DNA from: a virus
IMG/VR virus record: IMGVR_UViG_3300049491_000346
Location: 1 to 31,856 of that record
Direction: 5' to 3' (one strand)
DNA length: 31,856 nt
Shown here: positions 3,621 through 30,635 of the stretch, in pieces
Layout: every line of letters begins with the position of its first letter
Numbering within the stretch: the first letter of the stretch is position 1
Notes under the pieces: model-generated
Databases searched by the model: none
Seen by the model: only the letters and a program-made list of their open reading frames with translations
Told to the model about the DNA's origin: nothing
Position numbers and translations under genes: made by a program

Positions 3621-4420
3621 CGCCCAGCCGGGTCGCCGGTCGCGGCCCGGTGAATGAGCTCGTCGGCAAGGTGCCGGGCAACGATGGCCTCGTCGAGGTG
3701 GACCGTGCCGGCCTGACCGGCGGGCAGGGCAGCGACGACGGCGGCCGCCGCAGCGTCCGCGTACTTATGGATCATGGCCGGGTTGGACAGCAGGCCGTAG
3801 GTCCGCTGCAGCATCACCCCGGTGGACACCGACGGCCCGAACCCTGCGCCCCACACCGCGGCGGCCACCTTGTGGAGAGCGTCCTCGGTCAGGTCCATCT
3901 GTGTCATGTGGTCTCCCGTAGTGGTGAGGTCACCGCTCTTGACGAGGGCGTACAGGTGATCGCCGGGGCAGGCCGTCGAGTGGAGGTCGCGGTGCCCGAC
4001 GACCTTCGTCGCCTTCGGCCACCGGGTCAGCCACACCAGGTCCCGCCACGCCTTGAACGAGGCGACCTGCTCGTGGGTCGGGACGTCGGCGACGCCGAGC
4101 AGGAACGTCGCCGCCCCGAACCGGGTGTTGACGTCCTGGTCGCCGTTCGCGGCGGGCCGCCAGTCGATGCCCCGGCAGTCCCAGATCCGGCCGTCGATGG
4201 AGAACGCCACCTGATAGGCGATGTCCGACCACTTCCGGCCATCGACGTGGTCGGTGAGCTCGCCACGCAGCATCGCCGCCGGGTCGAGGCGGGCGACGCT
4301 GCCCGCCGACCCCGTGTAGTGGACGGCGATGCCCTCCAGGGTGGAACTGTCGAGCGGTACCAGCTTCGCCAACGGCCGCGTGTTCGGGGTCCACACGGAC
4401 CTCGGCAGCACAGCGACCAT
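3617..4420 (-). CDS. Endolysin: N-acetylmuramoyl-L-alanine amidase (PGRP/amidase_2)
   Basis: A 267-residue lysin. The amidase_2 zinc site is visible: His34 in AVHYTG, His143 in VGHRDL and Cys151 in STACPG; Tyr35 and WSDIAYQ (64-70) match the family core. It cleaves the amide bond between N-acetylmuramic acid and the peptide stem. Residues 170-267 hold no known cell-wall-binding repeat; they form an Ala-rich, helical domain (VSTGVMLQRTYGLL...) often seen at the end of actinophage amidases. No signal peptide, so release needs the downstream holin candidates. I place the start at ATG 4420; GTG 4447 is an in-frame alternative adding nine basic residues. The recurrent late-operon element lies at 4448-4470, just upstream. 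Confidence 0.9.
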   Translation of the reverse strand: MVAVLPRSVWTPNTRPLAKLVPLDSSTLEGIAVHYTGSAGSVARLDPAAMLRGELTDHVDGRKWSDIAYQVAFSIDGRIWDCRGIDWRPAANGDQDVNTRFGAATFLLGVADVPTHEQVASFKAWRDLVWLTRWPKATKVVGHRDLHSTACPGDHLYALVKSGDLTTTGDHMTQMDLTEDALHKVAAAVWGAGFGPSVSTGVMLQRTYGLLSNPAMIHKYADAAAAAVVAALPAGQAGTVHLDEAIVARHLADELIHRAATGDPAGR

Positions 4421-4510: not shown

Positions 4511-7399
4511 TCACGTGTTCCGGATCAGGGCCCCGACCTCCCGCGTCCACGGCCACGACGGGGACCGGGCCCCCTCGGTCCGGGAGTTCTCGTGCTCCAT
4601 CCCCAGCAGCGTCGGGTACGCGGCCCGGGCAGCGACCCACACCTTCCGGGTCACCGCGACCGGTGAGGCGTACCAGAGGTTCTTCTCCGGTGGGGTCGTC
4701 ATCACCAGGACCATCGTCTTGGACATCGGCCAGGCCGCCGCGTTCAGGACCCCCAACTTGGCCAGGGTGTAGTCCACGAGCCGGTCATCGCGGGCCTCCG
4801 CCACCCACTCCGCCCACAGGGAGAAGTAGTCGACGTTCGCGGCCGCTGCGGTGAGGAGCGCCAGCCACGCCGTGGTCGACGTGTCGTCCAGCCGGCCGGA
4901 GAACCCGACGAGGAACGTCGACCCGTACGTGGTCTTCAGGCCTGACGCCAGGGACACCATCTGGGCCTGCGTCCACAGGTTCGGCTGCAGGACGATCTCG
5001 ACGCCGTTGAACCCGTACTGCGTCTTCAGGGCGTCGAGGGTGTTCAGGAAGTCGGTGACGTTCCCCGCGGTCTGGACCCGGACCCCACCGTCGGAGCCAC
5101 CGACGACGAGGACCACGTTGACGTTCCGGGCCCTGACCGCCGCGATCGCTGACACCGCCGCCGACGCCGCGGTCCCGTCGCTCATCGCCCACGTCAGCTT
5201 CCCCGTCCCGTACGTCGAGGCCTGCGCGATCGCCAACCCGACGTGGTTCACCAGGCCCGCGGTGACCCCGGACCCGATGACGTCGGCCGGCCATGACGCC
5301 AGGTGCGGCGCCGACCACGTGTGCCACCACATCGCGCACACCCCGGACGTCTGCAGGCCCGTCCCCGGGGGTGGCTCGGTCCCGGCGAGACGGATCGCCA
5401 GCGATGCCGTCAGCTCACCCTTCGTCGCGGTCGTCGTCACCGACGACGTCGCTGACTGGGCCGCGACCGTCGCGGTCGTCGCGTACCCCTTCCACGCCAC
5501 CAGCTCGGACTGCGGCTTCGCCCCCGCACCGAGGCTGAAGTTGTCGAACAGTGCGGCCGGCGGGGATGGCTCGGAGCCGTAGAAGCCGTGGGTCAAGGCG
5601 AACGACATCGCCGTCAGCGCCAGGCTCGTCGTCTTGGTCCGGATCGTCGTCCACACTGCCCGGTCGGGGCTTGCCTCCCAAAAGATTGTGGAGCCGGAGG
5701 ACCGGATCCTCAGATATCGATGCGAGATGGCGTTGTAGGTCACGGTTGCATCCGTAGGCGTCCCGGCGATCAGTTCCCGGGCTACAAGGTTGGTCCCTGA
5801 GATCATCAGGATGAGGCGGTTGTTCACGTCGACCTGGGCGATCAGGTAGGTCTCCATGGATCCGTTGCCTGGGGTCCCGGACTGGGGGATTTCCACGGTG
5901 ACGTCTCGGTTATTGAGACTGTAGGTCGCGGTCGTTGTGATCCCCGGGTAGGTGTTCACACCGTTGACGCTGAGCCGGCCGGAGGCCACCGCCGCATTGG
6001 CTCCCCACCCGGTCCAGTTGGTGACGTCCTGCGCGGAGAAGTCGTAGGTCAAGCCGGCGGTCTGCACCAGCGGTGGCCCGACGGTCGCGTACCCAGCGGG
6101 GGCGGTCCACGTGTTCGAGCCGGCGGTGTGCCGGATGTGGTAGGCCGCGACGTGGATGGCCTGCGCGGGCGTCGTGATCCCGTTCGCGGGGTGCGAGGTA
6201 GCAGCGGACGACGACGACGCCCACGACGGGGTCACCGACAGCGGCGACGTCGGCGACGCCCCCGTGACCCGCAGAAGGGTCATCTGCTGGTACACCGGCG
6301 ACGCCGACGCGCCCGGGTCGGTGACGGTGACGTCGTCGACGTCAATGTTCCCTGAGGCGGCGGATCCGCCGGCGGCACCGACGAAGGTGTACCCGGCGGC
6401 GGTGATCGCCGAGTCGGTCCCGGTCAGCGTCCACGTGCCGGGCTCGGACCCCGTCCACAGCTTGACCTGCAGGCTGGTCCCGACAAGCCGGAACCGGACC
6501 TGATACCAGGTCCCGGCGGACGTGCCGGACGCGGCCGTCGCGATGGTGGTCTCGGTCCCGGACACGACCTTCTTCAGGTCGATGGCGCCGCCCTTGGCGA
6601 CCTTCACGAAGTACGACGTCGAGTTCAGGAACCCGTCGGAGGGGCCCCTCAGGCCGACGATGAACAGGGCGTCGGAGGAGTTGAACCGGAACGACGTCAG
6701 GACCTCGGTGTCCTGCCGGGTCGCGATGTTCACCATCTGCGCCCGGTACCCGTTGAACCCGGTCAGGGTGCCCGCGTTGATGTTGCCGACCCCGGACCCG
6801 ACCGTCGCCGACGCCCCCGTGGTCGAGGCACCCGTCGTCCACGTCCCCGACCAGGACGAGCCCGTCGAGAACGTGTCGGTGGCCAGCACGTTCGACCCAC
6901 CAGCGGGACCGTTGAACGCGTAGGACGCCGGCTCGGACGCGGTCGCGAGCTTCGTCCACACCTTCCCGAACCCGGACGCACTTGACCCGCCCGCACCCTG
7001 CGCAGTCCACGACGCATCGGGCGCGGTAAGGCCTGCGAGAGAACCATTCTCGTCACAGAAGTGGATACCGACGAGGAGGTCACCGGCCTGCAGCCCGGTC
7101 GGGGTGGCCACCGACATCGCTGACTGGGACGTCGGGTCGGTGTACGACGCGGACGCCACCGTGAACGATGCCGCGACCGCTGACTCGGTGTGCCCGACCG
7201 AGACCAACGACCTCGACCCCAGGTAGGTGCGGCCAGTCAACGCCCGGGGTGTGGCATAGGCCGTCGGGGCCACCGTCCCCGCTGACAGGAACGACGCCAG
7301 CCGGGGGTGGCTGGCCGGGACAGGCTGCCCGGCCGCGAACACGAGGACGTCGCCGAGGTAGGTCGGGGCGATCGCCACATACTGGTCGTACTCACCCAT
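4511..7399 (-). CDS. Minor tail protein with GH18-like C-terminal domain (inactive site)
   Basis: A 962-residue tail protein. Residues about 1-60 look like a tail attachment segment. The middle carries two jelly-roll/LamG-like modules of the sort that bind glycans (one around DTFSTGSSWSGTWTT, one around FSAQDVTNWTGWG). The last 281 residues form a chitinase-like TIM barrel: VVLVVGGSDGG (762-772) matches the SxGG strand and FNGVEIVLQPN (797-807) sits where active GH18 enzymes have DxxDxDxE. All acidic positions are changed, including the catalytic Glu, which is Gln. It should therefore bind, not cut, a carbohydrate. ATG 7399 has GGAGGT just upstream and lies 7 bases before the end of the hub gene. 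It is probably the receptor-binding tip. Confidence 0.8.
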   Translation of the reverse strand: MGEYDQYVAIAPTYLGDVLVFAAGQPVPASHPRLASFLSAGTVAPTAYATPRALTGRTYLGSRSLVSVGHTESAVAASFTVASASYTDPTSQSAMSVATPTGLQAGDLLVGIHFCDENGSLAGLTAPDASWTAQGAGGSSASGFGKVWTKLATASEPASYAFNGPAGGSNVLATDTFSTGSSWSGTWTTGASTTGASATVGSGVGNINAGTLTGFNGYRAQMVNIATRQDTEVLTSFRFNSSDALFIVGLRGPSDGFLNSTSYFVKVAKGGAIDLKKVVSGTETTIATAASGTSAGTWYQVRFRLVGTSLQVKLWTGSEPGTWTLTGTDSAITAAGYTFVGAAGGSAASGNIDVDDVTVTDPGASASPVYQQMTLLRVTGASPTSPLSVTPSWASSSSAATSHPANGITTPAQAIHVAAYHIRHTAGSNTWTAPAGYATVGPPLVQTAGLTYDFSAQDVTNWTGWGANAAVASGRLSVNGVNTYPGITTTATYSLNNRDVTVEIPQSGTPGNGSMETYLIAQVDVNNRLILMISGTNLVARELIAGTPTDATVTYNAISHRYLRIRSSGSTIFWEASPDRAVWTTIRTKTTSLALTAMSFALTHGFYGSEPSPPAALFDNFSLGAGAKPQSELVAWKGYATTATVAAQSATSSVTTTATKGELTASLAIRLAGTEPPPGTGLQTSGVCAMWWHTWSAPHLASWPADVIGSGVTAGLVNHVGLAIAQASTYGTGKLTWAMSDGTAASAAVSAIAAVRARNVNVVLVVGGSDGGVRVQTAGNVTDFLNTLDALKTQYGFNGVEIVLQPNLWTQAQMVSLASGLKTTYGSTFLVGFSGRLDDTSTTAWLALLTAAAANVDYFSLWAEWVAEARDDRLVDYTLAKLGVLNAAAWPMSKTMVLVMTTPPEKNLWYASPVAVTRKVWVAARAAYPTLLGMEHENSRTEGARSPSWPWTREVGALIRNT

Positions 7400-9122
7400 T
7401 GGCACCTCCGGTGCTCAGGGCCGGTGCCGCGTAGGGCGTCGGCGCCAGGTCGGCCTTGATCCTGGACTTCAGGGTTCGGGTGCCACCATCGAGGTCGAGG
7501 GTCGCCGCACCCGCGGACACGTCGTAGGACACCCCCGTCAGGCGGAAGATGGCCACCCCGTCGGGGGTGTCGGTGGTCCCGATCGCCCCGAGGCGGGGCG
7601 CGGCCCGCGTCACCATGATCGGTGACCCGGGGAGGATCTCCCACGGCTGCACATACCGGCCAGCGACGAGGTCGAGGATCGGCTCAGCGACGGTGGCTTG
7701 CCCGGACGGCTTAGTGACCGCGACCCGCGAGATCGCGTTCTGCCCCAAGGTCGTCGCGGCGGCCACGCTCATCGGGCCCTTATCGGTCACGTCCACGATC
7801 ACGGTCCGGGTCAGGCCCTCGTCGTCCAGGACCGGGACCGTGGCCGTCACCACGACCGTCGCCGGCCGCTCCGGGGCAGCGAGGTACACCACCAGGGCCC
7901 GGTTCGCTACCGAGTCGGACCCGCCGGCCAACCGGACCCGTGCGTTCGGGCCAAGGATGTACCGGATCGGGGTCTGCCACGTCCCGTACTGGAACCGGGG
8001 CCGGCGTTCGGTGGGGCGGGGAGCCCACACCGCCCACCAGCAGAACGGCGCGTACTGCAGGGTAAAGTCGAGGACCTGCCGGGCCGTGACACCTTTCCAC
8101 CAGCAGGCCTGGTCGACGTACGTCGTGGGCTGCTGGATCTGCGGGTCGACCTCGACGGCGGTGCGCATCAGCCGCCCGATCACGTCGTTGACGACGTCCG
8201 CGACGGAGGGCCGGAACGCGTCCGGGGTCTCCGCCGTGGGCAGTTCCTCCGTGCCGTCCCGCATGAACCGGCGCCCCAGGACCGTCAGGTTCGCGTGCCT
8301 CACCCAGTCCGTCGCGGTCGTCGCGGTCACCGCCGCCCCCGAGTAGGTGGTCCGCACCATCAGGGCGTGGTGGCGGGCCGCCGCCAGCCACGTCCCAGCC
8401 CCGAGCTCGGCCTGCCAGTCCGTCTGGCTGGTCGCGTTCTGGAACGTCGCAAGGACCGTGCTGGCGGTCTCGTCGTTGCCGCCCCGGACCGTCGTCGTCC
8501 ACGACGCGCCCGCGGCACCAGTCGAGGCCCGCGTGGAACCCGTGACCTGCGCGAGGGCCGCCACGTCCGCGGCCTGCCCCTGCCCGGCCCGGTACAGGAA
8601 CGACATCGTCGTCCCAGCCGGCAGACCCACTCCCGTCGGGATGGCCTCCTCCTGGAACGAGCTCGGCGTTGAAGACCCACCGTCGATCGCTGACGCCGCG
8701 AGAGTCCCCGCCCCGACACCGACCTGCGCGGTCCCCGCCGGGTAGTCCCCGAGCGGCACCCACGACGCCGGGTCCCGGTCCACGATGCACCACGCGTCAG
8801 CGAGACCGTCGAGGAGGGCCTTCTCCCCGACGGCAGTCAGCGCGTACCCGTCGAGGCCGGGTTGGATTCGCTGCCCCGGGTCAGAGATCCGGCCGTGCCA
8901 CACGATCTGCCCCGACCCGCGGTCCACGACCTGCACCACCGGGGCACCAGCGAGCTGGACCGGGGCCGGCACGTTCCGCGACCAGGGGATGGTGGCTGTC
9001 AGCTTCTCGTACCCGCCGGGGACGGTCGCCGAGAACCGGGCATCGCCGGGGATCCGGACCGTCAGGGCGCTGCCCGTCGCGGGTTCGATCCGCAGCAGCA
9101 GCGTGGACCGCGCTGACGTCAT
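7392..9122 (-). CDS. Minor tail protein (baseplate hub/Tal-like)
   Basis: A 576-residue protein encoded between the distal tail gene and the GH18-like tip, the usual position of the tail hub. The N-terminal ~80 residues (VRIPGDARFSATVPGGYEKL and on) and strand-rich pattern with QIVWHGRISDPG (about 78-89) resemble siphophage hub proteins of the gp27/Tal fold. The rest includes LLVGG-free globular sequence with Trp-rich motifs (QACWWKG, FCWWAVW). No peptidoglycan hydrolase motif is visible. ATG 9122 overlaps the stop of the upstream gene (ATGA, 9119-9122). A frame extension to 9221 is a shadow. The assignment rests mainly on gene order. Confidence 0.7.
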   Translation of the reverse strand: MTSARSTLLLRIEPATGSALTVRIPGDARFSATVPGGYEKLTATIPWSRNVPAPVQLAGAPVVQVVDRGSGQIVWHGRISDPGQRIQPGLDGYALTAVGEKALLDGLADAWCIVDRDPASWVPLGDYPAGTAQVGVGAGTLAASAIDGGSSTPSSFQEEAIPTGVGLPAGTTMSFLYRAGQGQAADVAALAQVTGSTRASTGAAGASWTTTVRGGNDETASTVLATFQNATSQTDWQAELGAGTWLAAARHHALMVRTTYSGAAVTATTATDWVRHANLTVLGRRFMRDGTEELPTAETPDAFRPSVADVVNDVIGRLMRTAVEVDPQIQQPTTYVDQACWWKGVTARQVLDFTLQYAPFCWWAVWAPRPTERRPRFQYGTWQTPIRYILGPNARVRLAGGSDSVANRALVVYLAAPERPATVVVTATVPVLDDEGLTRTVIVDVTDKGPMSVAAATTLGQNAISRVAVTKPSGQATVAEPILDLVAGRYVQPWEILPGSPIMVTRAAPRLGAIGTTDTPDGVAIFRLTGVSYDVSAGAATLDLDGGTRTLKSRIKADLAPTPYAAPALSTGGANG

Positions 9123-25235: not shown

Positions 25236-25450
25236 CAGTCGATCCATTCGATGTAGGTGGCGCCGTGGTGGCCGTGGACGACGTCGACGTCTTCGACGCG
25301 GTCCCACACGCACGTCTGGGCCGGGCCACCAGCCGGCGGCAGCCACCTGGTCGCGACCCTGCCGTCGCTGAACTGGACGCCCTCACAGACGATCCCGGTC
25401 CCCGACACCCCGGTCACGTCGGTGTAGCGGGCGAGCTGGAACCGCCTCAC
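25235..25450 (-). CDS. Small protein between portal and protease genes
   Basis: A 71-residue protein. GTG 25450 overlaps the portal-MuF stop (GTGA, 25447-25450), and its stop overlaps the next ATG (TGATG). The sequence has short strands (VCEGVQFSDGRVATRWLP) and ends DVVHGHHGATYIEWID. The GVxFxDGxxAxRW pattern is reminiscent of small phage proteins that follow MuF genes, but I know no function for them. The longer frame up to 25504 is a shadow of the portal gene end. Confidence 0.65.
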   Translation of the reverse strand: MRRFQLARYTDVTGVSGTGIVCEGVQFSDGRVATRWLPPAGGPAQTCVWDRVEDVDVVHGHHGATYIEWID

Positions 25451-27711
25451 GACAGGCCCCACACCGCGACGAGGGTGCCTCGGCACCGTTCCCGGCCCAG
25501 GCACGCCCGGTACTGGCCGTGGGGGTACTCGGCCAGGGCCGTCTCAAGGGAGTCGTAGGTGGTGCCGTCGATCGCGGCGCAGTTCTCGCATGTCGAGGAG
25601 TCCCGGATCTCTGAGGCGTGGAACGTCGCGACCCGGTCGATGGCCCGGAACACCCAGGCCCGGCCCGCACTGATCGCGTCAGCGACAGCGCCACCGAGGA
25701 CGTCCTGGGCGTAGGTCCCGGACAGGTCGACCAGGAACGACGCGACCCGGTCAGCGAGGTCGACTGCCGCGACACCAGCGGACCCGACGAGGCGGACCGC
25801 TTCCCGGGCGGCGGCAGCAGCGAACGAGGCCCCCATCACGGTGGTCACGGCGGCTGCCATCACACTGATCGTGGCGGGGTCAGGGGTCGGGTCAGGTGCG
25901 GTGACCCCCTGGTGGGCGGCCTCAGCGGCGGCAGCGACAGCACCCGCGTCGGCGGCCTCGGACATGGCGACCGCGAGGAGGTCCGCGGCGTCGGTGGTGT
26001 CGACGGTCAGTGCAGCGAGGGCGGCGGGGTCACCGGCAGCGGCGGTGACCTGGTCCTTCAGGGCCGCGATCCACGCCGTGGTGATGCCACCCCACGCGAG
26101 GAGCAGCGCGTCGAGAGCGGTGCCCTGGGCCCGGTCGAGGGCGGCGGGGTCGTACCCGGCGGACTCTTCGGCTGCAGTGAGGGCACGCCGGTACGGCCAG
26201 TCGCCGGCGGCGACCTTCCGGGCAGCAACCGGGACCGGCGGGACGGCGGGAACAGCGGCCGGGTCGGTGGGTGCCCCCGGCACCGGCGGGGTGGGGGCCG
26301 GCTTGCTGAAGTCGGGGCCCGGGACCACCAGGGAGGCGCCCGCAGCGTTCACGATCTCCCGGGCCTCGTCGGAGGTCACGACCGTGTCGACACCCAGGTA
26401 CACCTTCTGGATGGTCTCGGCGACGTCGCGGCGCTTCGCCTCAGCGGTCACCGCCGGTGCTGGAGCTGGCACTGGTGCCGGGTCGGGGGCGGTGGGCTTC
26501 GGGGCCGGCAAGTCCATGGCGTCCCGTAGCCACGCCTGCAGGTCGTCGTCCATCGTCAGGGCACCCGTCGCGACCATGGCCGCGATGGTCTGCGCGATCG
26601 CTGCCCGCGACACCGACATGTCGACGTGCACGGCGGGAGAGTTGGCGCCCTCACCTTCGTTGAAGTCGGTGAGGCGGACACATAGGCCGGTCGCGGTCTC
26701 GGCGAGCTGCTCCGCGAACGACTCCAACGCCAACGTGAGGACGTCAGCGAACACGGTCCCCAGGGCGCGGTTCCCGTGCCCGGTGTTCGCGAGGTCCAGC
26801 ACCGACGTGAGGGCCCCGCGGGCGATCTGCTGGTCCAGGTAGTGGATGGTGGGCAGGGCATCGGGGAGGGTGCCCTCGACACCGACGAGCCGCAGCCGCC
26901 ACCCCGGCAGCGCCGCCCCCGCAGAGTGCCCGACCCGGACCTGCCGGGCGATCGCCTCGGCCTGCGCGATCTGGGTGTCCGTGGGGTGGAACCCGGGGAT
27001 CGGTTCCATGACGGGCGTCGCGGACCCGAACCGGTTCAGGGTGGTGCCCTGGACCCGCAGCAGGTCCTGCTTGATCAGCCACGGCCCGAACGCATGCCGC
27101 AGCAGCGACACCCCCTGCCAGGCGGCACCTTCCCGTTCCCGGACATACCAGAGCAGGTCCTTCGCGTCGATCCTGGTCCCGAGGTGGTCCCCGAACGTGT
27201 ACTGCCGGATCGACTTCAGGTCACCGCCGTCGTCGGTGTCGATGCCCTGGATCGACTGCGGGAGCCGCTCCCCGAGGGACGCCAGGACCGCCTGCCCGGT
27301 CGATGCGTCGTAGACGGGGTTGAAGGGGGCGTGCCCGTACGTCAGGACCGTGGCCGCCGCCATGCGGATGTGGTCCCGCCACTGCACGCCCCGCCGCCGC
27401 AGCGGCCCCGGGTCGGCGGGCTGACCGAGGACCGGCAGGCCCAGGGAGTCAGCGCACACCTTCACCATCGCGTCGGACGCGCCACGCGGGTCGATGGACC
27501 AGCGGGCCCGCACGATCGGGTGGATGTACGCGGCGAGGACCGAGGTAATGGTCGGGTCGTGCCGCATCCGTGCGTAGGTCTGGACGGAGACAGGCCACGC
27601 GAGGTCCGGGACGATCTCGGTGCCGTCGTCGACGTTGGAGCCCCACCCGGTCAGGGTGTGGCCGCTGCTGATTGAGCCCTTGGCCCTGGTCGGGGCGTCA
27701 GTGGCGGGCAC
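25447..27711 (-). CDS. Portal protein fused to MuF-like minor head protein
   Basis: A 754-residue protein. Residues ~30-400 match the DUF935/Mu gp29-type portal (LAWPVSVQTYARMRHDPTIT, RWSIDPRGAS, HAPFNPVYDAST, FGPWLIKQDLLRVQGTTLNR). A Pro/Ala-rich linker (~405-430, 475-500) follows. Residues ~505-754 look like a MuF-type minor head protein, ending with a Cys cluster (Cys708, Cys711, Cys737, Cys743: CENCAAIDG and ACLGRERC) typical of that domain. The portal ring forms the DNA entry vertex; MuF proteins are internal head proteins. Portal-MuF fusions are known in actinophages. GTG 27711 has GGAGA upstream and a late-operon element at 27737-27760. Confidence 0.85.
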   Translation of the reverse strand: MPATDAPTRAKGSISSGHTLTGWGSNVDDGTEIVPDLAWPVSVQTYARMRHDPTITSVLAAYIHPIVRARWSIDPRGASDAMVKVCADSLGLPVLGQPADPGPLRRRGVQWRDHIRMAAATVLTYGHAPFNPVYDASTGQAVLASLGERLPQSIQGIDTDDGGDLKSIRQYTFGDHLGTRIDAKDLLWYVREREGAAWQGVSLLRHAFGPWLIKQDLLRVQGTTLNRFGSATPVMEPIPGFHPTDTQIAQAEAIARQVRVGHSAGAALPGWRLRLVGVEGTLPDALPTIHYLDQQIARGALTSVLDLANTGHGNRALGTVFADVLTLALESFAEQLAETATGLCVRLTDFNEGEGANSPAVHVDMSVSRAAIAQTIAAMVATGALTMDDDLQAWLRDAMDLPAPKPTAPDPAPVPAPAPAVTAEAKRRDVAETIQKVYLGVDTVVTSDEAREIVNAAGASLVVPGPDFSKPAPTPPVPGAPTDPAAVPAVPPVPVAARKVAAGDWPYRRALTAAEESAGYDPAALDRAQGTALDALLLAWGGITTAWIAALKDQVTAAAGDPAALAALTVDTTDAADLLAVAMSEAADAGAVAAAAEAAHQGVTAPDPTPDPATISVMAAAVTTVMGASFAAAAAREAVRLVGSAGVAAVDLADRVASFLVDLSGTYAQDVLGGAVADAISAGRAWVFRAIDRVATFHASEIRDSSTCENCAAIDGTTYDSLETALAEYPHGQYRACLGRERCRGTLVAVWGLS

Positions 27712-28289: not shown

Positions 28290-30635
28290 TCACCAGACCT
28301 GTCGAGAGTAATCGACCCCAGCCCCGGGCAGGGCGGCAGCATACGGGTCCGCCGGTGCTGGTGCCCGGCCCACCGGGTCACGGCCCACGCCCTCCGGGAC
28401 GAACCGCTGGAACGCGACCAGCACCGCGTAGGCGAGGTTATCGACGGTGTCGTCGTGGCGGCCGTTCGGGAACTCCTTCAGCTCCTTCACCACCACCGGC
28501 AGCAGCTCCCCGAGCTCCTCCGCCGGCAACCACACCATCCCGAGCCTGACCCGCCGAGCGGCGGGCGCGGCCCGCAGCGTCTTCGACTTGTCGGCGATGA
28601 GGTCGTCCAGGACCCAGCCCTCCGCGACGGCCTCCCGGGCCAGCAGCGTCCCCCGCAGCGACGACTCGATGTACGTGCACTCCGGTGACCACCGCTCCAC
28701 CAGGGGCCGGGCGAGGTCGATCTGGTGTTGCTCGGTGACCCGGTCCCGGCGCATGTCGAGGAGCGCCAGGCTGGAGTCGGGTGCCACACCCCAGCACGAC
28801 GCGACGGTGAAGTCCGCGCTCGACTTGGTGGAGGTGGCGGTGTCGACGGTCACGAACCGGTACAGGTCCCGGATCTGCCACGACCGGGGCCCGCACACGA
28901 TCTCGGTCCGGTCCCGGGACATCGTCCAGTAGCGGAGCTTCTCCGTGTCGAACACGGTCCCGCCCGGCGCGGCGGGAGCACCCTGGTACAGGGGCACCCA
29001 CTCGTCGCCGGCGGTCGCCTTCCGCATCTGCCACTGCTCCAAGGAACGGCCCCGAGCGGACCGCATGAACTCACCCGGGGCACGGCCCAGCGGGTCAGGG
29101 TCCACGAGGTCAGGGTCAGCTTGAGCGGGGATGTGCAGGACCCGCCACTGGGCGCCGTCCGGGTGGGCGAGGAGCCGGCCCGCGAGGTCATCGTGGTGCC
29201 AGCGAGTGTTGTGGCTCACCAACCCATTGGCGATGAAGTTTTCCGTGCCCTCCACTTGGAGGTCATACACATCTTCGACTCCCGCCGGGGTTACCGACTC
29301 GATCTCATCGACTCCGAGCTTGTAGGTAGTCGGCGAGGGCGCGGAGCTGTTCAGGGGTGACGGCCCTTCCTGCGATGACGTTGCAGTCATTGCAGAGCAG
29401 GCCGCGCACCTCCCCGGTGTCGTGGTCGTGGTCGACGCAGAGGACGTCGGTCCAGTGCTTAGGTTGGTTCGCCTCGTCCGGGGCTCGCCGACAAACTGCG
29501 CACCGCCCTCCCTGCTCAGCGGCGAGTCGGTCGAACTCATCTGGGCTGATTCCATACCGGCCACGTAGACGTATCGCCCGGCGGTTTTCAGGGGTAAGCG
29601 AGGGGGGACGGTGACCGGCTGCCCATCGGTGCTTGTTGTAGTGAGGCATGCACCTGCCCTTGCAGCGTGCAGGCTCGTCGCATCCATCAGTGGAACAGGG
29701 GGCGTCTCGGTAGGTTCCCCAACGCACATCACCCTGTCGTTCGGTCGCAGTGCGTCCGTTCGTACCCATTCCTCGCGCCCCTCACTATTGATGGTCAGGA
29801 ACGGGTGCCGGGCGTTGGCCTTGACCACTCGTCCTGATTTCATCCTAATCGCGAAGATGGCATCGGGTCCTTGGCTCGCCCAGTTGATGACTCGGGCAGT
29901 CGTCAGGGCTCCCCTCTCGTAGGTCGCGATGGCATCGTCCGGCCGGATATCCCTTAATTGCGTCTCGGTTCCATCAGGACGCAGAACGGGGGTGTCGCCT
30001 GTCATACACATCACCAGGATCACCGGTGCGCCCGGGGCGAGACGGGACGACGCGGTGCCCTCCCACCAGTCCCATGCGTCGTCGCGTGCCACGTCGGAGT
30101 CGGCGGCCTTCCGGTCCTTCACCGGGTCGTCGATGAGGAGGCAGTCGACGGGGCGGCCCGTCAACGACCCGCCGATGCCGGCGGTGTAGACCCCACCGCC
30201 CGTGGTTAGCTCCCACTCGTCCGCTGCCCGCTGGTCGGGGGCCAGCCGCAACCCCAGGTCGAGGGCGCCCCGGCCGCCCGAGTTCGCGGTGATGTCGTTG
30301 CGGACCCGGCGACCCCACCGGCGTGCTAGACGGTCAGCGTAGGACGCGATCGCGACCCTGCGGGTCGGGTCACGGTGCAGAAGGAACACGCTCCCCGCCC
30401 GCGTCACCGCACTGCTCTTACCCTCCTGGGGCGCAACGAACACCATCAGCCGGGCGTCAGGTGTCGACTCCGCCCACCGGAAGTGCTGGTCAACCAGCTC
30501 AAGGGCCGGGGTGCGGACCGTGCGGTGGTCCAGGGCGCACAGCAGGTCCAGGGGCCCCGCCCACCCGGTCCGCGTCGACTGCAGCCCGGCGCCACGGTCG
30601 AACGCGGCGAGGCGCCGGACGTCGAGGGCGGTCAC
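28290..30635 (-). CDS. terL: Terminase large subunit, interrupted by an intein
   Basis: A 781-codon gene giving a 514-residue terminase after splicing. ATPase part: Walker A-like APQEGKSS (68-75), Walker B DCLLIDD (164-170), and the motif VILVM-TRWHHDDL, which is split by the intein after Met209. Nuclease part: TVDTATSTKSSADF with Asp598, YIESS with Glu657, and HDDTVDNLAYA (727-737) with Asp728/729/732 supply the metal-binding acidic residues (precursor numbering). It cuts and pumps phage DNA into the procapsid. I take GTG 30635, which overlaps the preceding stop (GTGA); GTG 30650 is possible. Frame open upstream to 31169 is a shadow of two other genes. The gene is nonfunctional without splicing, since the intein sits within the ATPase coupling motif. 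Confidence 0.93.
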   Translation of the reverse strand: MTALDVRRLAAFDRGAGLQSTRTGWAGPLDLLCALDHRTVRTPALELVDQHFRWAESTPDARLMVFVAPQEGKSSAVTRAGSVFLLHRDPTRRVAIASYADRLARRWGRRVRNDITANSGGRGALDLGLRLAPDQRAADEWELTTGGGVYTAGIGGSLTGRPVDCLLIDDPVKDRKAADSDVARDDAWDWWEGTASSRLAPGAPVILVMCMTGDTPVLRPDGTETQLRDIRPDDAIATYERGALTTARVINWASQGPDAIFAIRMKSGRVVKANARHPFLTINSEGREEWVRTDALRPNDRVMCVGEPTETPPVPLMDATSLHAARAGACLTTTSTDGQPVTVPPRLPLKTAGRYVYVAGMESAQMSSTDSPLSREGGAQFVGEPRTRRTNLSTGPTSSASTTTTTPGRCAACSAMTATSSQEGPSPLNSSAPSPTTYKLGVDEIESVTPAGVEDVYDLQVEGTENFIANGLVSHNTRWHHDDLAGRLLAHPDGAQWRVLHIPAQADPDLVDPDPLGRAPGEFMRSARGRSLEQWQMRKATAGDEWVPLYQGAPAAPGGTVFDTEKLRYWTMSRDRTEIVCGPRSWQIRDLYRFVTVDTATSTKSSADFTVASCWGVAPDSSLALLDMRRDRVTEQHQIDLARPLVERWSPECTYIESSLRGTLLAREAVAEGWVLDDLIADKSKTLRAAPAARRVRLGMVWLPAEELGELLPVVVKELKEFPNGRHDDTVDNLAYAVLVAFQRFVPEGVGRDPVGRAPAPADPYAAALPGAGVDYSRQVW
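29208..30008 (-). other. Intein in terminase large subunit (267 residues)
   Basis: Starts at Cys (codon 30008-30006) and ends at Asn (29210-29208), with Thr as the next extein residue. Block A is CMTGDTPVLRPDG. Block B is NARHPFL (residues 65-71) with His68. Block F/G is VEDVYDLQVEGTENFIANGL ending VSHN with the penultimate His and final Asn. Residues 1-98 and ~229-267 look like a normal mini-intein Hint fold. Residues ~100-229 are a Ser/Thr/Pro-rich stretch with no intein or endonuclease motifs. Exactly there, another frame encodes an HNH-type nuclease. Sampled GC in the intein is 50-60 percent against about 70 percent in the flanks, a sign of transfer. Protein splicing would rejoin VILVM to TRWHHDDL. 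Confidence 0.93.
29305..29769 (-). CDS. Endonuclease VII/HNH-type nuclease nested out of frame in the intein
   Basis: A 154-residue protein coded wholly inside the intein in the -1 (or +2) frame. Cys25, Cys30, Cys36 and Cys40 form a zinc-finger-like N-terminus (CSTDGCDEPARCKGRC). Residues 90-130 carry the recombination endonuclease VII pattern: CAVC (90-93), DHDHDTGEVRG (113-123) and CNDCN (126-130), with the second metal-site Asn130. Helix TPEQLRALADYLQ ends it. ATG 29769 is preceded by GAGGGG 8 bases upstream, so it can be started alone. It probably acts as the homing endonuclease that cuts intein-free terL. The start overlaps conserved intein block sequence; the stop (29305) precedes the C-terminal splicing block. 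Confidence 0.85.
   Translation of the reverse strand: MGTNGRTATERQGDVRWGTYRDAPCSTDGCDEPARCKGRCMPHYNKHRWAAGHRPPSLTPENRRAIRLRGRYGISPDEFDRLAAEQGGRCAVCRRAPDEANQPKHWTDVLCVDHDHDTGEVRGLLCNDCNVIAGRAVTPEQLRALADYLQARSR

Follow-up and report, generated by a model that had tools for sequence, protein, structure and literature searches.

An endonuclease VII-like gene in the +2 frame of a terminase intein: a probable mobile element whose nuclease would be translated separately

In mobile inteins, by definition, the homing endonuclease is an in-frame domain that is released by splicing. What, then, is to be made of an intein that carries a complete nuclease gene in another reading frame? This question is raised by a 31,856-base fragment of a tailed-phage genome (IMG/VR virus record IMGVR_UViG_3300049491_000346, positions 1 to 31,856; hereafter, the window), in which the gene for the terminase large subunit (terL) is interrupted by an intein and an endonuclease VII/HNH-type open reading frame (ORF) lies over the same DNA. 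Our comparative analysis argues that this is very probably a mobile intein of the TerL C-motif whose homing nuclease is a separate +2 gene, made by internal initiation and lying outside the spliced protein.

The initial annotation had read the intein blocks in the terminase frame and a complete nuclease ORF (29769-29305) in another, and all of its coordinates proved correct. The terL gene covers positions 28290..30635 on the minus strand, from a GTG at 30635, picked as the start codon from an alignment with relatives, to a stop codon at 28290-28292, and its coding part (28293-30635, minus strand) matched phrog_38 (E 3.1e-69) and phrog_4758 (E 4.9e-35). The intein (29208..30008, minus strand; 267 amino acids, Cys1 to Asn267, with His266 as the penultimate residue) is inserted within the ATPase domain at its C-motif, between an N-extein (30009..30635, minus strand) ending in ...APVILVM and a C-extein (28293..29207, minus strand) starting with TRWHHDDLA, the Thr of which is residue +1. 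The splicing residues C1, H266, N267, and T+1 are all present. In addition, the splicing domain was recognized by PF14890 (E 6.5e-15) and by TIGR01443 and TIGR01445, both above their cut-offs, and the predicted model of the intein showed the HINT fold when compared with the splicing domain of the Mtu RecA intein (Z 22.8, 134 residues, root-mean-square deviation 1.4). The N-terminal half of this domain (29705..30008, minus strand; residues 1 to about 101) includes block A (CMTGDTPV) and block B (ANARHPF), is conserved in the alignment, and was mostly modelled with a predicted local distance difference test score (pLDDT) above 95. The C-terminal half (29208..29342, minus strand) contains blocks F/G (...VYDLQVEGTENFIANGLVSHN), matched TIGR01443, and had a pLDDT above 95 over residues 231-267. 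Between the two halves lie some 120 residues (102-222) with a pLDDT below 50, corresponding to the Ser/Thr/Pro-rich linker (29343..29702, minus strand; residues 103-222) through which, as had been noticed from the sequence, the intein frame stays open across the nuclease ORF, and which is predicted to be disordered. Judging by its motifs and its predicted fold, the insertion at 29208-30008 is an intein; identity as a group I or II intron is discarded because no Rfam match at the gathering threshold was found anywhere in the window and because the insertion is open and bears splicing motifs.

The nested gene (29305..29769, minus strand) runs from ATG to TGA in the +2 frame relative to terL and encodes 154 amino acids, and the stops that bound its frame on the 5' and 3' sides both fall within the intein. 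Its product matched PF02945 Endonuclease_7 (E 1.5e-19; 70.1 bits against a cut-off of 23.6), phrog_2914 (endonuclease VII), and the profile of T4 endonuclease VII 1e7d (E 4.5e-8). Among 43 aligned sequences, the metal/zinc and catalytic residues C90, C93, D113, H114, C126, C129, and N130 were invariant, and this region aligns with T4 endonuclease VII, whereas an N-terminal Cys/His region (C25, C30, C40, H43) and the location inside an intein set the window protein apart from the T4 enzyme, whose resolvase activity is not implied by the likeness. The predicted nuclease model was good apart from residues 1-11 (mean pLDDT 83.6), and a fold search with it ranked T4 endonuclease VII first, with a modest match (Z only 5.9); because of this, the endonuclease VII-like assignment is founded on the sequence together with the invariant Cys, Asp-His, and Cys-x2-Cys-Asn residues.

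Relatives of the element were collected by tblastn in phage records, by scans of viral and prokaryotic collections with a nuclease alignment, and by scans with the intein N block, which are independent of the nuclease. The nuclease-based scans favour nuclease carriers, a bias that does not affect the frame relation. Removal of near-duplicates left 122 non-redundant elements, 117 of them with a full-length nuclease frame, to which a second intein scan later added 16. Natural variants of the catalytic motif (AVDH, LCDDCN) escaped a strict regular expression, whose count of 95/117 was not used as evidence. No relatives were recovered from viral contigs by a single-sequence scan with the window nuclease, the patterns of which were too specific where alignment-based scans succeeded, and a DNA-level search of phages with the window gave no match. 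In bacteria, loci with the nuclease only (L100-L125) had no TerL intein, far lower scores, and mostly the appearance of free-standing genes.

The same nuclease was found by tblastn inside terL of Gordonia, Mycobacterium, and Mycolicibacterium phages, and it was +2 to the intein in every genome examined (Nordenberg, Vivi2, Phlyer, phi1_186018, Affeca, Angelicage, Vincenzo, and Chandler). Among the 175 loci detected through the intein N block, 169 had the nuclease in the +2 frame and an intein frame open from the N to the C block; the other six were three mini-inteins without nuclease, one locus with two stops in the intein frame (L194), one frameshifted copy (L050), and one cut by the contig end (L084). 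The 16 new elements of the second intein scan were all +2 and open, and a further copy was frameshifted. No genuinely in-frame endonuclease was present in any of the 175 N-block loci or the 16 later elements, so the earlier idea that the insertion replaced such a domain found no support. L050, considered as a candidate, was rejected, as the frameshift that would bring its nuclease into the intein frame also puts the intein C block out of frame. In L194, L050, and L243, stops or frame changes in the intein frame could have their source either in sequencing errors or in a dead terL.

The insertion site was identical across elements (terL, with T[RW]W after the junction). These ranged in G+C content from 0.40 to 0.65, came from actinophages, other phages, and prophages, and extend to phages from a wide range of bacterial phyla. 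Genome records carrying the element include Nonomuraea, Mycolicibacterium, Bradyrhizobium, Sulfuritalea, Endozoicomonas, Geobacteraceae, Anaerolineae, Chloroflexi, and Eremiobacterota, several of them metagenome-assembled, with a host assignment only as good as the bin. The terminal Asn of the intein was found in 122/122 elements and the penultimate His in 111/122. Ten of the 122 had Ser at this penultimate position, including the terL intein of NC_055777.1 / NC_031239.1 (L004, L005), and one had Lys. Some known inteins also lack the penultimate His, and the splicing rate of the copies with Ser may differ. Regarding the nuclease itself, that of Vincenzo (L010, 1448-2032) is longer, with about 194 amino acids, and has an additional N-terminal Cys/His motif ahead of the usual one, perhaps a DNA-binding module that was duplicated.

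The distribution of the element is patchy and its empty sites are exact to the base, as is characteristic of homing elements. Among Gordonia phages with terL exteins of about 97% identity, Paries is intein-free, with exactly 795 nucleotides (nt) missing, whereas Affeca and Angelicage share one type of intein and Vivi2/Nordenberg have another, the two types showing only 70% DNA identity. Likewise, the Mycobacterium phage Fortunato presents the exact empty site for Vincenzo. Over 110 elements, the distances of intein and nuclease were correlated at 0.57 and those of intein and extein at 0.26, the higher value being the one expected of a unit that moves together. These data also bear on whether the nested HNH protein assists TerL in packaging and is kept for the benefit of the phage, and not for homing. 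The location inside terL speaks for such a role, as HNH proteins are known parts of phage packaging machines and, according to PMC12613952, which cites Kala et al. 2014, HNH genes commonly adjoin phage terminase genes; in addition, a PF01844 search of this contig, which is possibly incomplete, turned up no further HNH gene. Against it, Paries and Fortunato lack the nuclease together with the whole intein, mini-inteins and deletion derivatives without nuclease keep an intact terL, and the nuclease always travels with the intein, all of which makes a packaging role unlikely.

Several relatives lack an intact nuclease. Deletions in the nuclease with the intein frame kept were found in L147, L201, and L189, and also in L214 and L260; disrupted nuclease frames within intact inteins were found in L162, L032, and L149, and L188, L129, and L152 are mini-inteins of 133-152 amino acids without nuclease at the same kind of site. 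L147 resembles an internal deletion of an L144-like element, with which it shares the nuclease N-terminus. As a set, these degenerate sequences fit a homing cycle. They also show that decay in the family is real, and a decaying nuclease, a passenger that is unexpressed in this phage while the intein persists through splicing alone, could be imagined. However, the window copy is full length, with its catalytic residues, start codon, and Shine-Dalgarno (SD) site intact, and purifying selection acts on the nuclease frame across the whole family, so that we consider a mere passenger quite improbable.

This selection was apparent in several ways. Median ratios of nonsynonymous to synonymous rates (dN/dS) were 0.14 for the nuclease, 1.49 for the intein, and 2.05 for the third frame over 29 pairs at 80-90% identity, and 0.16, 1.22, and 1.93, respectively, over 149 pairs at 70-80% identity, with substitutions concentrated at nuclease codon position 3. 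The nuclease frame is, therefore, under purifying selection and evolves like that of a normal gene, and the relaxation that could have spoken against the first reading of this locus was not seen (dN/dS 0.14-0.16). Within the nuclease gene of the 117 elements, no intein-frame stops were observed, against 165.9 expected from synonymous permutation, whereas the third frame, taken as a control, held 1230 against 1209 expected; therefore, selection keeps the intein frame open. The elements are related by descent and such counts are not independent trials, although the effects were judged large enough to put the conclusion beyond doubt. Substitutions were distributed differently at the 5' end of the nuclease gene, where roughly twelve codons coincide with the final conserved strands of the N-terminal splicing half. 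Change was most frequent at the intein wobble base in this stretch (0.32 vs. 0.22-0.25) but at the nuclease wobble base in the rest of the gene (0.44 vs. 0.12-0.18). From this flip it follows that the DNA is divided between the two frames, with the splicing domain written over the low-confidence N-terminal tail of the nuclease and the nuclease body over a dispensable linker. The initial proposal that this DNA is constrained in two frames consequently holds, as a real shared constraint, only for these roughly twelve codons; along most of the shared DNA, selection on the intein linker demands no more than the absence of stops.

How the nuclease would be made is suggested by its start. In the window, the ATG (29767..29769, minus strand) is placed so that its last two bases and the following G form the codon of intein Trp81, and GAGGGG (29778..29783, minus strand), a probable ribosome-binding site with a duplex energy of -7.6 kcal/mol, lies 8 nt upstream, as the initial annotation had noted. 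At the corresponding x|TGG position, formed by the base before the conserved Trp codon, ATG was found in 92/117 elements, GTG in 25/117, and any other triplet in none, the 92 occurrences of A at that wobble base comparing with 35.3 expected given the amino acids. Pairing of the upstream region with the anti-SD sequence was also stronger than after synonymous resampling (-6.5 vs. -5.7 kcal/mol, p 1.5e-6). The ribosome site, good in the window, is variable in the relatives, where the conserved item is the ATG/GTG on the Trp81 codon.

The main competitor of an internal start is ribosomal frameshifting (-1/+2) from terL, which would give a fusion of N-extein, N-intein, and nuclease. It would account for the constant frame relation, and the nuclease frame is open upstream of the start in many elements (median 39 nt, maximum 126 nt). 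On the other hand, a fusion does not need a conserved start, yet ATG/GTG is invariant, and a stop in the nuclease frame lies immediately 5' of the start in 7/117 elements and at 12 nt or less in about 20 (at 12 nt in the window), leaving hardly any room to shift; therefore, a frameshifted fusion is no general mechanism, and we regard it as very unlikely here. We infer, with good support from these comparisons, that the nuclease is translated by internal initiation. Finally, a sequencing or assembly error that shifted an ordinary in-frame endonuclease domain can be dismissed, since, although isolated frameshifts are seen among the family's metagenomic contigs (L050, L243), the same +2 frame recurs in every relative, including the finished isolate genomes of Nordenberg, Phlyer, Chandler, Affeca, Angelicage, Vincenzo, and phi1_186018 and well over 100 unrelated contigs, and the TerL frame is resumed at the intein C block with no second shift.

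Some observations weigh against a mobile intein with a separately initiated homing nuclease. In several relatives the SD-like site pairs weakly (e.g., -3.0 kcal/mol in Affeca), and part of the G-richness of this site stems from a conserved Asp-Gly of the intein. Vertical descent clearly contributes to the inheritance of the element and may account for much of it, as indicated by the correlation between intein and extein. The window itself is a single metagenomic contig that has no close relatives. Moreover, block B reads NxxH (ANARHPF) throughout the family, with Asn replacing the canonical Thr of TxxH, although the Chandler homologue, which splices, shares this Asn (RANDRHPF).

From the anatomy, frame, conservation, selection, start-codon conservation, stop avoidance, and precise empty sites observed here, we infer internal initiation, cutting, and homing as parts of the following scheme. 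The carrier is an intein at the TerL C-motif site, known in mycobacteriophages as TerL6-f, and its homing endonuclease would not be an intein domain but the product of a separate +2 gene written over a dispensable linker. Ribosomes would translate through the TerL precursor, from which the 267-amino-acid intein would excise itself, as expected by analogy with Chandler gp6, the homologue for which splicing is known (PMC5050341), and the sole job of the linker would be to contain no stop codon. Ribosomes would also initiate internally, at the ATG on the Trp81 codon, to give a free endonuclease VII-like HNH enzyme of about 17 kDa, made up of an N-terminal zinc-finger-like Cys/His region and a His-Me-finger nuclease domain. 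This enzyme would be expected to cut intein-free terL near VILVM/TRWH in a co-infecting phage, and repair of the cut would then copy the whole intein with its nested gene. The decoupling of homing from splicing through an internal start, already proposed in the initial annotation, is thus supported by the comparative evidence of a constant +2 frame and a conserved start.

Canonical inteins with an in-frame endonuclease, such as Mtu RecA and PI-SceI, have in common with the window intein the HINT fold and a splicing domain whose N and C halves are separated by inserted sequence. They differ in that the nuclease of the window is out of frame, apparently translated separately, and an endonuclease VII-type rather than a LAGLIDADG enzyme. 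Dassa et al. (2009) reportedly described 'fractured genes', split inteins that have a free-standing nuclease gene placed between their two parts, in which the nuclease is also inside the intein yet translated apart from it; in contrast, the window intein is unsplit, with a single frame that runs from the N- to the C-extein and overlaps the nuclease gene.

The closest described elements are the TerL6-f inteins of mycobacteriophage subclusters B3/B4 (Kelley et al. 2016, PMC5050341), which are homologous and occupy the same C-motif site; those of Phlyer, Chandler, and Vincenzo hold the same +2 endonuclease VII gene. As far as the text available from that paper goes, the Chandler gp6 intein spliced readily in a reporter, cleavage tests are given for TerL1-b and TerL1-c, terminase inteins positive for a homing endonuclease, with none reported for TerL6-f, and the TerL6-f elements are treated as inteins without an endonuclease VII gene being noted; a search of this text for endonuclease VII gave no mention. 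Out-of-frame HNH genes were described in phage methylase insertions (ShiLan domain, Pacc40) by Arsenault et al. 2025 (PMC11855218), work of the kind to which the initial annotation had pointed, with uncertainty, for actinophage inteins; that pointer was right as to the kind of arrangement, but these insertions are not inteins. They resemble the present element in being mobile insertions open in the host frame, with an HNH gene in another frame and a disjunct distribution. They differ in having neither a splicing domain nor a recognizable ribosome site and in being predicted to remain in the methylase, whereas the window element is a true intein, expected to remove itself, with a conserved start codon and an SD-like site in many copies. 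The conclusion of PMC11855218 states that overlapping reading frames are frequent in actinobacteriophages too, citing a preprint by Gosselin et al. (10.1101/2025.01.02.630785) on actinobacteriophage inteins. In the literature library searched, no paper was found to describe an out-of-frame nuclease inside a splicing intein. Part of our finding may already be described in that preprint for actinophages; as far as could be checked, what is new is the occurrence outside actinophages, together with the quantitative evidence on the conserved start, stop avoidance, and selection on the nuclease frame. On a wider view, the chances seem to us about even that these elements make up a distinct and widespread class of 'overprinted' TerL C-motif inteins, unreported outside actinophages and present in phages whose hosts belong to many phyla, that their nuclease is in every case a +2 gene with its own initiation, and that the class had a single origin and was maintained, despite the steady pressure on stops, because producing the nuclease separately is advantageous.

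In 36 GenBank phage records with the element, the only feature at the nuclease match was the terminase, with the intein also annotated in the Phlyer record; unannotated nucleases lie, for example, at positions 1386-1835 of NC_055777.1 and 3751-4191 of NC_012027.1. The terL of Vincenzo bears the note 'homing endonuclease in intein', without a separate coding sequence. Endonuclease VII-like HNH matches without any annotated feature were also found in ON529862.1 (12440-12838, Brevundimonas phage Poludnitsa) and PV596790.1 (36043-36312, Yersinia phage vB_Yep_9). Elsewhere in the window, the last 50 residues of the portal protein (phrog_113; 25447-27711, minus strand), with a Cys-rich tail, match the C-terminus of the head maturation protease profile (phrog_595), and an ORF of 964 codons downstream of the tape measure gene (4511-7405, minus strand) had no PHROG match at E 1e-3.

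In conclusion, splicing and mobility, joined in a single protein in the usual mobile intein, appear here to be split between two overlapping genes on one stretch of DNA. The arrangement is old and widespread enough for quantitative tests, based on a start fixed by a Trp codon, a linker purged of stops, and a nuclease under normal selection. It offers a case of a selfish gene that would have invaded another selfish gene without breaking its host element, and many natural replicates of overlapping-gene evolution. Annotation misses the nested nuclease, and translation from within a structural gene becomes directly testable in these phages.

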